Assembly (NCBI GenBank): GCA_958296405.1 | Contig: OY282519.1 | Location: forward strand, 1,038,132-1,102,131 | Reading direction: 5' to 3' | From: an uncultured Pseudomonadales bacterium | GTDB lineage: Bacteria; Pseudomonadota; Gammaproteobacteria; Pseudomonadales; Azotimanducaceae | Length of the DNA stretch: 64,000 nt | Part shown: positions 7,631-41,401 of the stretch, one piece after another | How positions within the stretch are numbered: position 1 is the stretch's first letter | Layout of the letters: each line of letters opens with the position of its first letter | Notes under the pieces: model-generated | Seen by the model: only the letters and a program-made list of their open reading frames with translations | What the model was told of the DNA's origin: nothing | Databases searched by the model: none | Program-made: the position numbers and the translations under genes

Positions 7631-8206
7631 ATGAACGTCGAGCCGTTGGCCATTCCCGATGTGAAGCTCGTGACGCCGCAGCGACACGGCGACCACCGCG
7701 GGTTCTTCTCCGAGGTGTATCGCCGCGACCACCTCGCTGCGGCGGGCATCGACGTGCTCTTCGTGCAGGACAATCACTCGTTTTCCGCCGAGCGCGGCAC
7801 GGTGCGTGGGCTGCACCTGCAAGCGCCGCCGTTCGCGCAGGACAAGCTGGTGCGCGTCACGCGCGGCGCCGCGTTCGACGTCGCCGTGGACGTGCGGCGC
7901 GGCTCGCCCACCTACGGGCGCCATGTGTCCGCGATGCTGTCGGCGGATGCGTGGAATCAGCTATTCGTTCCGGCTGGTTTCGCGCACGGCATCATGACGT
8001 TGGTCGCCGACACCGAGATTCTCTACAAAGTGAGCGCCCGCTACGCCCCGGAGCATGACCAAGGCCTCTTATGGAACGATCCGGCGCTCGGCATCCCGTG
8101 GCCCATCCCGGCTGCTGAGGCGGTGCTCTCGGAGCGCGATCGCCACCACCCCGTGCTTGCGGACTTCACCACGCCCTTCGTCCACCCGGCGGCTGGCCGC
8201 GGCTAG
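7631..8206 (+). CDS. rfbC: dTDP-4-dehydrorhamnose 3,5-epimerase
   Basis: This is a 191-residue cupin epimerase of the RmlC type, which converts dTDP-4-keto-6-deoxyglucose to the L-lyxo ketone on the dTDP-rhamnose route. The family blocks are present: H-R-G-F-F-S-E-V-Y, QDNHSFS, VRGLHLQ with the catalytic His at 62, and the FVPAGFAHGI stretch. The ATG at 7631 lies one base after the previous stop region, so it is coupled to the glycosyltransferase. rfbA is present on the other strand at 14863. rfbB and rfbD are not recognisable in the window, so the pathway must be completed elsewhere or the product is not rhamnose. Confidence 0.9.
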   Translation: MNVEPLAIPDVKLVTPQRHGDHRGFFSEVYRRDHLAAAGIDVLFVQDNHSFSAERGTVRGLHLQAPPFAQDKLVRVTRGAAFDVAVDVRRGSPTYGRHVSAMLSADAWNQLFVPAGFAHGIMTLVADTEILYKVSARYAPEHDQGLLWNDPALGIPWPIPAAEAVLSERDRHHPVLADFTTPFVHPAAGRG

Positions 8207-8212
8207 GGCGCC

Positions 8213-9235
8213 ATGAAGACGATTTTGGTGACGGGCGCCGGCGGCTACATCGGCACCACGTTGACACCCATGCTGCTCCAAGCTGGCCACGCCGTGCGCG
8301 CCGTGGATCGCTTCTTCTTCGGCCGCGACTTGCTCGCGCCTCGGCCTAATCTTGAGATTTTGGTGGAGGACACGCGGAAACTCACGCCGCAGCACTTCGA
8401 AGGGGTGGATGCGGTGATCGACCTGGCCGCCATCTCCAACGATCCTTCCGGCGAGTTGTTCGAGAAGGCGACGTGGGAGATCAACCGGGACGCGCGCATT
8501 CGTTGCGCCCGGCTCGCCAAGGCGGCGGGGGCGGCGCGCTACATCCTGCCGTCTTCATGCAGCGTGTATGGCTTCCAGGATGCGGGGAGCGTGGCGGACG
8601 AGACGTCGCCGACGAATCCGCTGACCACCTACGCGAAGGCCAATGAAATGGCCGAGCGCGGCGTCTTGAGCTTGGCTGACGACCGGTTTTGCGTGGTGGC
8701 GCTGCGCCAAGCCACGGTGTACGGCTTGTCGCCGCGCATGCGCTTCGACCTTGCCATCAACGGCATGACCTATGGCGCTTGGAAAACCGGCAGGTTGCCG
8801 CTGATGCGCGATGGGTCGCAGTGGCGGCCGATGTTGCATGTGCGCGATGCGGCGCGCGCCCTCATGTTCGTCTTGACAGCCGACGCGGACGCCGTGCGCG
8901 GGCGCATCTTCAACGTCGGTTCGGCGGCGAACAACTACCAAATTGGCCCTTTGGGGGCCTTGGTGGGGGAAGCGGTGTCGCGCGCCGTGGACATCGAGTG
9001 GTATGGCGACCCAGACGAGCGCAGCTATCGCGTCGGGTTCGAGCGCATCGAAGCGCTCGGCTATCGGGCGCAGCTAACTGCTGCCGATGGCGTGGCCGAA
9101 ATCTGCGCGGCGTTGGCAGCGGGGAAGGTGGATCGCACGCCACGCACCATCACGTTGGATTGGTACAAGCACTTGGTGGCGATGCAGCGGCTGGTGCGCG
9201 ACGTGGAGCGCTACGGCGGCATCGTCGACATCTAA
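8213..9235 (+). CDS. NAD-dependent epimerase/dehydratase (extended SDR)
   Basis: This gene encodes 340 residues and starts six bases after rfbC. The NAD-binding Rossmann motif T-G-A-G-G-Y-I-G is at 7-14. SSCSVYG carries the catalytic Ser region at 114-120. The usual Y-x-x-x-K reads Y140-A-K-A-N144, so the Lys position is Asn with a Lys two residues earlier. The second half (MRFDLAINGM, MRDGSQWRPMLHVRDAARA) matches SDRs that modify nucleotide sugars in surface glycan loci. The exact substrate is unknown. The unusual active site may mean altered chemistry or a shifted Lys. Confidence 0.82.
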   Translation: MKTILVTGAGGYIGTTLTPMLLQAGHAVRAVDRFFFGRDLLAPRPNLEILVEDTRKLTPQHFEGVDAVIDLAAISNDPSGELFEKATWEINRDARIRCARLAKAAGAARYILPSSCSVYGFQDAGSVADETSPTNPLTTYAKANEMAERGVLSLADDRFCVVALRQATVYGLSPRMRFDLAINGMTYGAWKTGRLPLMRDGSQWRPMLHVRDAARALMFVLTADADAVRGRIFNVGSAANNYQIGPLGALVGEAVSRAVDIEWYGDPDERSYRVGFERIEALGYRAQLTAADGVAEICAALAAGKVDRTPRTITLDWYKHLVAMQRLVRDVERYGGIVDI

Positions 9236-9319
9236 GCGGGCCGAGCGATGGGGCGCGACGACTCTTGGTGAGTGAGGGGCGGCGGCGCCGGCGACGATTC
9301 GCCCACGCATTCGTCCCTT

Positions 9320-10009
9320 TCATTTGCGTTCGCGAACGGCGCATTGGTACTCGGCGATGACGGGCTCCACCTCTCCGGTGGCGCGAATGTGTCCGGCGTC
9401 GAGCCAGATTGCCCGGCTGCACAGGCGGCGCAGCATGGCCACGCTGTGGGACACATAGACGATGGCTTTGTCTTGCTGAAAGCGCTCCAGCATCATCTTT
9501 TCGGATTGCGTGCGGAACGCTTGGTCGCCGACGCTGAAGATCTCGTCCAAGAGCAGCACGTCTGGGTCTAGATTGATGGCCGTGCAGAAGCAAAGCCGGC
9601 CACGCATCCCGGTGGAGTAGGTGCTGACGCGCCGATGAATCGCCTCGCCGAGGCCGGACATGCGCGTCACCTCCGCCACTCTGGCGGCCGCCTCTTTTCG
9701 GCTCAGGCCCATCAACATGCCGTGCATGACGATGTTGCGCACGCCAGAGAGCTCGCTGTCGAAACCGGCGTTCAAGGAGAGCAGGGCGCTGGACATGCCT
9801 TGGGCGTCCATTTCGCCGCCGGCGTCGGGCCGCAGCACGCCCGTCATCACCCGCAACAGCGTGGACTTGCCGGAGCCGTTGGCGCCGATGACGCCGAGCT
9901 TCTCGCCGCGGGCAACGCGCAGCGACACGCCCCGCAATGCCTGCACCTGCTCTGGCTTGGCAAAGAGGCGTCGTTCCGAGTATGTGACGGAGACGTTTGC
10001 CAACCGCAT
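9320..10009 (-). CDS. polysaccharide ABC exporter ATP-binding protein (KpsT/Wzt type)
   Basis: This 229-residue ABC ATPase has Walker A G-A-N-G-S-G-K-S-T at 42-50, the signature YSTGMRGRL and Walker B VLLLDEIFSVGD. The wording YSERRLFAKPEQVQALRGVSL and LFSVGDQAFRTQSEKMM is that of the capsule and O-antigen exporters. It lacks the C-terminal carbohydrate-binding domain of Wzt, so it resembles KpsT or domainless Wzt. Its ATG overlaps the permease stop by four bases (ATGA), so the two halves are made together. It powers transport of a finished lipid-linked glycan across the inner membrane. Confidence 0.9.
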   Translation of the reverse strand: MRLANVSVTYSERRLFAKPEQVQALRGVSLRVARGEKLGVIGANGSGKSTLLRVMTGVLRPDAGGEMDAQGMSSALLSLNAGFDSELSGVRNIVMHGMLMGLSRKEAAARVAEVTRMSGLGEAIHRRVSTYSTGMRGRLCFCTAINLDPDVLLLDEIFSVGDQAFRTQSEKMMLERFQQDKAIVYVSHSVAMLRRLCSRAIWLDAGHIRATGEVEPVIAEYQCAVRERK

Positions 10010-15738: not shown

Positions 15739-17243
15739 GCCTCGTCGGCGCTGCACTCGCTGTCATCGCCGTTGGCGAGGGCCTCCACATCCCCTTCGAC
15801 GCCGGCCTCCATCGCGCTGCGGCCAAAGTCATCTGCAAAGCGTTCGATGTCGTCTTCGCCAAGATAGTCGCCAACCTGCACTTCAATGAGCTCAAGCGGC
15901 CCTTCGCCGGGGTTGCCAAGCCGGTGCAGCGCACCGGGTGGAATGTAGGTGGATTGGTTCTGCGACAGGTTGAACGTCGCGCCGCCGCGGTTCACGCGGG
16001 CCGTGCCGCTCGCCACCACCCAGTGTTCGGAGCGATGCTGGTGTCGCTGCAGCGAGAGCTGTGCGCCAGACTTCACGGTGATGCGCTTGACTTGGTAGCC
16101 AACGCCGGCGTCGATGGTCTCGAACCAGCCCCAAGGCCGATACACGCGCCGATGATCGAGGCGCTCTGGGCGGGATTGGGCCTGCAGTTGCGCCACCACC
16201 TCTTTTACCTGCTGTGCTGCGCCTTGCGCCGCCACCAATACGGCGTCCGCGGTCTCCACCACGATGAGTCCCTCAATCCCCACCGCCGCCACCAAGCGAT
16301 GCGTCGCGTGAACGAGCGAATCCTTGGCGTCGACGGCCACCACGTCGCCGGTCAAGGCGTTGTTGGCGGCGTCGGCGTGGCGGATTTCGTGCAGCGCGGG
16401 CCAGGAGCCCACATCGCTCCACCCCATTTCCACGGGCACCACCGCTGCTGCGGCCGTCTTTTCCATCACCGCATAGTCGATGGAGATGGCCGGTGAGCGG
16501 ATGAACGCGGCGCTGGGGCGGAAGAAGTCCAAGTCTTCGGCGCCGTCGGCGATGGCGGCTTCGCAGCACGCAAGGATGTCTGGCGCGTGGCGGGCGAGGG
16601 CTTCAATGTACGCGCTCGCCTTGAACAGGAAGATGCTCGTGTTCCAGTGGTAGTCCCCGGAGGCTAGGTAGCGCAGGGCTGTGGCGCGGTCGGGCTTTTC
16701 GGTGAACTCCAACACTTGGTGGGCGCGGCCGTCCACGGGCGCCCCGGCGCGAATGTAGCCGTAGCCGGTCTCGGCGGCGGTGGGTTTCGCGCCGAACAGC
16801 ACCAAGCGTCCGGCGTCCGCGCAGCCCAAGCCGGCGCGCACCGCTGCCAAGAAGGCATCGCCGCGCTCGATGCGACCATCCGCCGGCACTGCCAGCAACA
16901 GCGGATCCGCGCCGCCGGCGCGGGCATGGCAGGCGGCCAATCCGATGGCCGGCGCGGTGTTGCGGGGCTCAGCTTCAAGCAGGATGGCGGCAGGTGCCGA
17001 GCCGATTTCTCGGCATTGCTCCGCCACCAGAAAGCGGTGTTCCTCGTTGCAGACGACCACAGGGGCGCTTGCGCCCAGCGGTGCCAACCGTCGCAGCGTC
17101 TCCTGCATGAGCGAGTGCTGCCCGGTGAGCTTCAGAAACTGCTTCGGATAACGCTCGCGCGACAACGGCCAGAGCCGTGCGCCGGTGCCACCCGCGAGCA
17201 ACACCGGTTGGACAGGCGTTGGCGACAGTTCGGGCGCACTCAT
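15735..17243 (-). CDS. manC: mannose-1-phosphate guanylyltransferase / mannose-6-phosphate isomerase
   Basis: This is a 502-residue bifunctional-type enzyme. The N-terminal nucleotidyltransferase has L-L-A-G-G-T-G-A-R-L-W-P-L-S-R-E-R-Y-P-K-Q-F, and the C-terminal cupin has RPWGWFETIDAGVGYQVKRI and QRHQHRSEHWVV. It makes GDP-mannose for the glycan locus. I use the ATG at 17243 because the protein then starts 10-15 residues before the conserved block as in homologues; an in-frame ATG at 17270 would add nine residues. It is slightly longer than usual because of an acidic C-terminal tail. Confidence 0.92.
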   Translation of the reverse strand: MSAPELSPTPVQPVLLAGGTGARLWPLSRERYPKQFLKLTGQHSLMQETLRRLAPLGASAPVVVCNEEHRFLVAEQCREIGSAPAAILLEAEPRNTAPAIGLAACHARAGGADPLLLAVPADGRIERGDAFLAAVRAGLGCADAGRLVLFGAKPTAAETGYGYIRAGAPVDGRAHQVLEFTEKPDRATALRYLASGDYHWNTSIFLFKASAYIEALARHAPDILACCEAAIADGAEDLDFFRPSAAFIRSPAISIDYAVMEKTAAAAVVPVEMGWSDVGSWPALHEIRHADAANNALTGDVVAVDAKDSLVHATHRLVAAVGIEGLIVVETADAVLVAAQGAAQQVKEVVAQLQAQSRPERLDHRRVYRPWGWFETIDAGVGYQVKRITVKSGAQLSLQRHQHRSEHWVVASGTARVNRGGATFNLSQNQSTYIPPGALHRLGNPGEGPLELIEVQVGDYLGEDDIERFADDFGRSAMEAGVEGDVEALANGDDSECSADEA

Positions 17244-19829: not shown

Positions 19830-19906
19830 TGGTGGGCCCACCAGGACTCGAACCTGGGACCAATCGATTATGAGTCGACCGCTCTAACCTGCTGAGCTAT
19901 GGGCCC
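19830..19906 (-). tRNA. ileX: tRNA-Ile(CAT), lysidine type
   Basis: This is a complete 77-base cloverleaf with encoded CCA. The anticodon loop is C-T-C-A-T-A-A. The acceptor stem begins G-G-G-C-C-C-A; C4-G69 and C5-G68 are features of the minor isoleucine tRNA whose C34 is converted to lysidine by TilS, whereas elongator tRNA-Met typically has other pairs there. The stretch around the anticodon also matches E. coli ileX closely. It lies 23 bases downstream of rpoD on the same strand and may be co-transcribed with it. Confidence 0.85.
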
Positions 19907-41016: not shown

Positions 41017-41367
41017 CTACAGCAGCGCTTCGATGTTCGTTTCCGGACGGGCGATGACGGCGCGGCCGCCGCGGGTGGCGATGGGGCGCTGCATGAGGCG
41101 CGGGTGCTTGGCGATCAAGCTGGCCACCGCCGGCGCCTTGGTGTAGTCCTCGGCGTTCAGCCCTAACTCGGCGAAGTGCTTGTCGCGCCGGATGAGGGCC
41201 CCCGGCGCCGCATCGAGCATCGCCAAGATGCGCAACACCCCAGCCTCGTCAAGCGGCGTTTTCAGGTATTCAATGACATCGAACTCGACGCCACGCTCGC
41301 GCAGTATTTTCACTGCGCCGCGCGATTTGCCTCAGCCGGGGTTGTGATAGAGAACGAGGCGTTCCAT
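41017..41367 (-). CDS. ArsC/YffB-like reductase, predicted selenoprotein (UGA = Sec)
   Basis: Read through an in-frame UGA at 41332-41334, this is a complete 116-residue ArsC-family protein. It begins MERLVLYHNPG-U-GKSRGAV, so selenocysteine replaces the catalytic Cys of the N-P-x-C-x-K-S-R-G motif. The rest (VIEYLKTPLDEAGVLRIL, LMQRPIATRGGRAVIARP) is intact, including the conserved Arg of the R-P-I element. The ATG at 41367 has GGAG seven bases upstream and a TATAAT box before that. A 7-bp hairpin follows the UGA at SECIS spacing. The alternative is a mutated gene, or a shorter product from GTG 41313. Such proteins reduce arsenate or an unknown substrate with glutathione/glutaredoxin. Confidence 0.82.
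41299..41318 (-). promoter_or_regulatory. bacterial SECIS-like hairpin
   Basis: On the coding strand GCGCAGT pairs perfectly with ACTGCGC around the 6-base loop GAAAAT, whose first base is G. The loop starts 20 bases after the UGA. A lower stem can form beyond a small internal loop. Size, loop base and distance fit what is known of bacterial SECIS elements. Confidence 0.7.
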
Positions 41368-41395
41368 TTGTCGGCTCCAACTTGGGCTCGCTGCG

Positions 41396-41401
41396 ATTAT
41401 A
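41396..41401 (-). promoter_or_regulatory. consensus -10 box for the selenoprotein gene
   Basis: A perfect TATAAT on the minus strand gives a leader of roughly 20-25 bases before the ATG at 41367. No strong -35 is visible. Confidence 0.5.

Follow-up and report, generated by a model that had tools for sequence, protein, structure and literature searches.

The locus lies on the minus strand of the window, the 64,000-nucleotide stretch of bacterial DNA analyzed here, and carries a gene of the ArsC family in which a single in-frame UGA takes the place of the catalytic cysteine codon (Table 1). The preliminary description had placed the gene correctly, leaving its strand unstated. Read from the ATG at 41367–41365 with UGA decoded as selenocysteine (Sec), the frame yields a 116-residue protein beginning MERLVLYHNPGUGKSRG that contains no other stop, in agreement with the claim of an ArsC frame interrupted only at the catalytic Cys site. 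The Shine-Dalgarno site described earlier is present as GGAG. The proposed −10 box survives as a literal TATAAT but has no recognizable −35 partner, and a sigma-70 promoter scan at the gene returned no promoter-like pair. The read-through protein matches two Pfam families, ArsC (PF03960) at 46 bits (cut-off 24) and glutaredoxin (PF00462) at 24.1 bits (cut-off 22.9). The best NCBIfam model for ArsC is TIGR00014, arsenate reductase (glutaredoxin), with 89.4 bits, short of the equivalog cut-off of 106. This ArsC is the only PF03960 match in its genome. Under translation table 11, the product is an open frame of 98 amino acids starting at GTG 41313, which is found in the ORF list as had been foreseen, lacks the active site, and scores 36.2 bits against PF03960. 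Standard translation would truncate this gene, costing its active site.

Table 1 Features of the Sec-ArsC locus, in window coordinates.
Feature	Positions	Strand	Details
Sec-ArsC gene	41017–41367	−	ATG 41367; 116 residues; UGA as selenocysteine; stop TAG 41019–41017
In-frame UGA	41332–41334	−	Residue 12, catalytic cysteine position (HNPG-U-GKSR); codon compared across relatives
SECIS-like hairpin	41291–41325	−	Folding energy compared with shuffles and synonymous recodings; covariation weak
Shine-Dalgarno-like GGAG	41375–41378	−	7 nt upstream of the ATG
TATAAT, possible −10 box	41396–41401	−	Literal match; −35 partner not found

A scan of the 64-kb window for TGA codons with coding-like flanks on both sides returned three sites over the thresholds. 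UGA 41334 has a downstream score of 35.2, compared with 8.3 and 8.4 at the other two sites; its upstream score is weak (3.1 at a threshold of 3, versus 10.7 and 5.2 elsewhere) because just 11 codons precede it. The other two TGA codons, at 16494 on the plus strand and 52477 on the minus strand, show coding-like codon usage on both sides and much weaker downstream scores. The sole Rfam match at the gathering threshold in the window is a tRNA gene at 19833–19906 on the minus strand.

The selenocysteine machinery is present in the same genome, a single contig of 3.83 Mb. The selA gene (TIGR00474, 514 bits) adjoins selB (TIGR00475, 378 bits) at L011:6439–7941 and 7938–9809, and ~8.5 kb beyond the end of selA is a tRNA-Sec (anticodon tca, 69.7 bits). 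ARAGORN classifies a second tRNA match above the Rfam cut-off (48.7 bits) as tRNA-Ser. The remaining component, selD, was found at 267.7 bits. It forms the C-terminal part of a 729-amino-acid open frame (L123:331–2520, plus strand; G000:C1 near 2468163). On visual inspection, the N-terminal part of that frame resembles an NADH-dehydrogenase-type flavoprotein; fusions of such a flavoprotein to SelD are known. In the SelD part, the sequence GGCGAKLG contains Cys rather than Sec. In a survey of 97 genomes, SelA scores above the cut-off in 10 of the 12 genomes that contain a Sec-ArsC. The SelA of G025 reaches 262.7 bits (cut-off 267.9) in a match cut at a contig end, and the match in G001, a 71% complete genome, is weak (34 bits) and may be to a protein other than SelA. 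Among 61 sampled genomes, seven have a Sec-ArsC; tRNA-Sec was found in six of these and missed in G025.

UGA occupies the catalytic position in some homologs and a Cys codon in others, as the preliminary description had anticipated. Across the 147 loci at which the catalytic codon was read, it is TGA in 35 and TGC or TGT in 112; locus L162 was dropped, its catalytic position being unaligned. All nine genus genomes searched, including this one, have TGA at this codon. The 97-genome survey, which also includes this genome, gave an ArsC match in 84 genomes and catalytic TGA in three other genomes of the family (G025, G039, and G052). A search of 206 family genomes gave a match in 176 and, among the matches listed, from which the weakest were left out, a catalytic TGA in 30 loci of 29 genomes, including the nine of the genus and the three just named. 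Each of these 30 loci has one TGA and no other stop. A strict search of the order (390 genomes, E 1e-25) produced nine matches, eight of them within the family; the one outside it, in G294, has no stop inside. A wider scan found five TGA, 54 TGC, and 21 TGT codons at the catalytic position in the best 80 of 569 relatives, and the five TGA loci are titled as Deltaproteobacteria, Candidatus Binatia, unnamed bacterium, Acidimicrobiia, and Latescibacterota MAGs. Four genomes flagged as having one TGA (G014, G032, G129, and G199) proved to have TGC as the catalytic codon (L111, L155, L154, and L153) and were not counted.

Three further observations concern individual loci. One genome, G145, holds two Sec-ArsC copies (L132 and L146). 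Another, G119, has a Sec-ArsC (L130) and a second, Cys-type copy (L165, G119:C11) that is interrupted by TAA. The nearly identical Sec-ArsC loci L015 and L016 are titled 'bacterium isolate RHO2_bin_76' and 'Acidimicrobiia bacterium isolate SB0668_bin_6', and one of these titles may reflect a mis-binned contig.

The recurrence of the codon bears on whether the gene is a decaying ArsC in which the catalytic Cys codon (TGC or TGT) suffered a nonsense change to TGA. TGC is one base change away, and the genome offers no second PF03960 copy; however, the same UGA recurs in all nine genomes searched from the genus and in 29 of the 206 from the family, the 30 family loci have accumulated no further stop, and dN/dS past the UGA is 0.05–0.21 in eight chosen close UGA pairs (Nei–Gojobori). 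These ratios argue that the downstream sequence is kept as protein. We consider a pseudogene very improbable, and the gene appears intact rather than decaying, as had been proposed. A misread TGC, arising in sequencing or assembly, is a general possibility and nothing more, to which we assign a negligible probability: separately assembled genomes of related species share the codon, and the TGA can be taken as genuine.

A stable hairpin is present by energy immediately 3′ of the UGA. Its inner stem, GCGCAGU/ACUGCGC, pairs 41318–41312 with 41305–41299 and encloses the six-base loop GAAAAU (41311–41306), which has G first and begins 20 nt past the UGA; the fold bears out the 7-bp stem and loop recognized earlier from the sequence. 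In the ViennaRNA fold, one extra G-U pair closes inside the loop and an outer stem of 5–6 bp forms between 41325–41320 and 41296–41291. The UGA folded with the next 40 nt gives −19.5 kcal/mol (z −2.72), with 1 of 200 dinucleotide shuffles equally stable, and with the next 51 nt −24.7 kcal/mol (z −2.86), with none of 200. A stretch starting 3 nt earlier, in which the outer stem is cut off, is unremarkable (−15.3 kcal/mol, z −1.00, 33 of 200 shuffles). Synonymous recodings of the same peptide were equally stable in 2 of 300 cases in a first run and 5 of 300 in a second.

The same comparison was extended to relatives. In a first pass, the mean hairpin z was −1.83 in 17 UGA loci versus −0.35 in 93 Cys loci. 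After repeated 45-nt stretches were dropped, 28 of the 35 Sec and 111 of the 112 Cys sequences were kept. The 28 distinct UGA sequences have a mean MFE of −16.5 kcal/mol and a mean z of −1.56 against synonymous recodings, compared with −10.2 kcal/mol and −0.20 for the 111 Cys sequences at the same place, and −9.3 kcal/mol and +0.45 for the 17 closest Cys sequences, which were hand-picked as nearest to the Sec forms in a tree with the catalytic column masked. The z values of UGA sequences differ from those of all Cys sequences (Mann-Whitney p 6.7e-10) and of close Cys sequences (p 6.7e-7), in sets whose members are related and not independent. Several UGA members have unremarkable single hairpins (e.g., L098, L144, and L151, z about −0.3 to −0.5). 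Base-pair covariation in the hairpin is weak. It was scored on 16 of the 17 UGA loci then known, leaving out L016, which has the same 45 bases as L015. Pairing holds in 76.3% of cells versus 74.0% in shuffles (4 of 500 shuffles reach the observed value), 3 of 14 pairs are changed on both sides (reached by 51 of 500), and the covariation score is 0.123 (reached by 19 of 500); the RNAalifold consensus favors a shifted pairing register. The expected conservation of the hairpin among UGA relatives is upheld in part: the hairpin is stronger than the amino acids require, an excess that close Cys members do not show, but its covariation is weak. A loop rule that we take to be of the bSECISearch type, applied loosely, holds in 22 of the 28 Sec sequences, in 46 of the 111 Cys sequences overall, and in 12 of the 17 closest Cys relatives, and fails to tell Sec forms from these near Cys counterparts.

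L106 of G027, a Cys-ArsC that branches among the Sec forms in the tree, has a strong hairpin after its TGC, with an MFE of −19.1 and a z of −1.99, which is possibly a fossil SECIS. We rejected the fossil SECIS as a general claim for Cys members, a strong hairpin in 1 of 17 close Cys sequences being too few.

The hairpin also enters into whether the 98-residue frame from GTG 41313 is the real product, with the UGA as the true stop of an upstream leader. This is the outcome under table 11, and the shortened protein still scores 36.2 bits against PF03960. Yet an ArsC-like strand ending in YHN is encoded before the UGA in all 35 UGA members, and the hairpin excess after the UGA has no counterpart at the corresponding site of close Cys relatives. 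We regard such a leader as highly improbable.

Our preferred reading, held with strong confidence, is that the locus encodes a Sec form of glutaredoxin-type ArsC. Ribosomes at UGA 41334 would be reprogrammed by the downstream hairpin, bound by SelB with Sec-tRNA(Sec); Sec would go in at residue 12, and translation would continue to the TAG at 41017. The protein retains the ArsC catalytic loop HNPxCxxSR with the Cys replaced by Sec. A phmmer search against solved structures placed 2mu0 first (E 5e-17), followed by 1jzw and 1i9d (about 4e-13), arsenate reductases that rank ahead of Spx. The protein is collinear with these Cys-type, glutaredoxin-linked enzymes, of which we take 1jzw and 1i9d to be plasmid R773-type ArsC. 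The Sec selenolate would occupy the site of Cys12 in R773 ArsC, with Arg60, Arg94, and Arg107 at identical numbers. These residues, presumably the active-site arginines of the R773 enzyme, are conserved in 34, 35, and 35 of the 35 Sec proteins. R773-type ArsC has 140–141 amino acids and a catalytic Cys, whereas the protein described here has 116 residues, Sec, and no cysteine elsewhere. The lack of any cysteine is shared by 33 of the 35 Sec forms and is not special to them, since 70 of the 112 Cys forms have no cysteine besides the catalytic one. The selenolate most likely attacks arsenate, a moderately probable assignment. The resulting Se adduct would need an outside thiol for its resolution because the protein has no cysteine; this thiol is presumably glutathione, acting with glutaredoxin.

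An ArsC-fold selenoprotein with a non-arsenate job, such as the reduction of another oxidized substrate or a disulfide, would leave the selenoprotein reading intact and challenge only its substrate. An arsenite export partner, Acr3 or ArsB, is the usual company of an arsenate reductase, without strictly defining it. Searches of the genome for Acr3 (TIGR00832) and ArsB (PF02040) returned no match, ArsC is flanked by genes for a sulfatase and for a CoA-transferase of family III, and none of seven neighboring ORFs examined in the window is an ars gene. Finding neither pump nor an ars neighbor weakens the arsenate-resistance reading, and the TIGR00014 score of 89.4 bits, under the equivalog cut-off of 106, also speaks for another substrate. 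Against this stand the arginines at positions 60, 94, and 107, each of which 34 or more of the 35 Sec proteins retain, and the arsenate reductases that head the solved-structure matches with Spx behind. We hold a non-arsenate substrate to be a serious possibility, on the doubtful side.

A look for a conserved operon partner covered 10 ORFs at 7 of the 14 listed short loci and found no ars gene, which is weak evidence. The nearest relative, L094, has a sulfatase, as in the window, and a DUF3604 protein. L100 has an APH-family protein and a P450 protein, and L013 and L014 each have a UPF0004/radical-SAM/TRAM protein. Four neighboring ORFs (two in L095 and one each in L098 and L103) are unmatched and may be antisense shadows in G+C-rich DNA.

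The kind of protein found here is not new, UxxS ArsC selenoproteins having been published in 2005 and 2008. The earlier paper reports 14 Sargasso Sea sequences of a selenoprotein arsenate reductase that carries a UXXS motif and has a predicted bacterial SECIS (PMC1088965). The later one, on GOS data, lists 'Arsenate reductase (ArsC) 1' (pfam03960, UxxS) with 77 sequences and a second, UxxC type, 'Arsenate reductase 2', with 42 (PMC2398784). ArsC-like selenoproteins of Desulfotalea psychrophila and Desulfuromonas acetoxidans are listed in a 2006 paper (PMC1794560). The preliminary description saw marine metagenomes as the main source of ArsC-like selenoproteins, a fair remark as far as the UxxS type is concerned. 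The UxxS type is also listed in two reviews, with MBT3519430.1 as its representative (PMC9312934, PMC13188914), and the main text of PMC12013277 contains neither 'arsenate' nor 'ArsC'. In the open-access literature searched, the phrase 'selenocysteine-containing arsenate reductase' does not occur, and no purified Sec-ArsC is described in the titles listed, 12 of 25; neither result is proof of absence.

Compared by description, the published UxxS proteins (COG1393 / PF03960 / TIGR00014) and the one described here belong to the same family, share the U-G-K-S motif with Sec for the catalytic Cys, and have a bacterial SECIS-like hairpin directly downstream of the UGA. The UxxC ArsC-like selenoprotein (NF041106; GOS 'Arsenate reductase 2') is also ArsC-related with UGA at the catalytic position. 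Our protein is of the UxxS type instead, and NF041106 is not among its NCBIfam matches at E 0.001. The Spx/YffB branch of PF03960 has a related fold and scores below the arsenate reductase models and chains. The published UxxS proteins are known largely from reads, whereas here the gene sits in a single-contig genome with its own selA, selB, selC, and selD, and every genus genome searched is positive. This study adds an example from a complete genome, in which no Acr3 or ArsB pump was found; the protein lacks cysteine and has the arginine triad of ArsC.

It also adds likely repeated switching between Sec and Cys within one family, as suggested by a tree of 85 of the 147 loci (66 from the family and order, and five Sec plus 14 chosen Cys sequences from the wider scan; L165 is outside the tree and inside the 147-locus totals). 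Masking the catalytic column leaves a tree that requires at least five Sec/Cys changes (bootstrap 5–7), two of them forced by well-supported branches. With the two flanking columns masked too, nine changes are needed (bootstrap 7–10), three of them forced, and the AU test does not reject a single clade of Sec forms (p 0.114). These trees rest on 117 and 115 columns only. We do not claim a single Sec origin or a direction of switching. Two genomes contain both a Sec and a Cys copy (G234, L129/L156; G236, L128/L157). A Gly directly follows U (UGA-GGN) in 34 of 35 Sec forms versus 18 of 112 Cys forms. SelA scores above the cut-off in G019, G027, and G044, whose Cys forms branch among the Sec sequences in the tree; since SelA is kept, these Cys forms are not explained by loss of the machinery. 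We tentatively suggest that ArsC may have switched repeatedly while the Sec machinery was kept, that some switches may be Sec-to-Cys reversions, and that they may be tied to the neighboring residues, a proposal that approaches an even chance without reaching it. A 2026 review regards Sec-to-Cys reversion as rare, with FdhA and SelD as the main documented cases (PMC13188914), and the 2006 paper also draws a HesB-like Sec-to-Cys case (PMC1794560).

A selenoprotein family known largely from metagenome reads is now placed in a genome assembled as one contig that also encodes the recoding machinery. The close Sec and Cys relatives, including the two genomes that have both, offer a setting in which to test what selenium at a single active site costs and what it gains.
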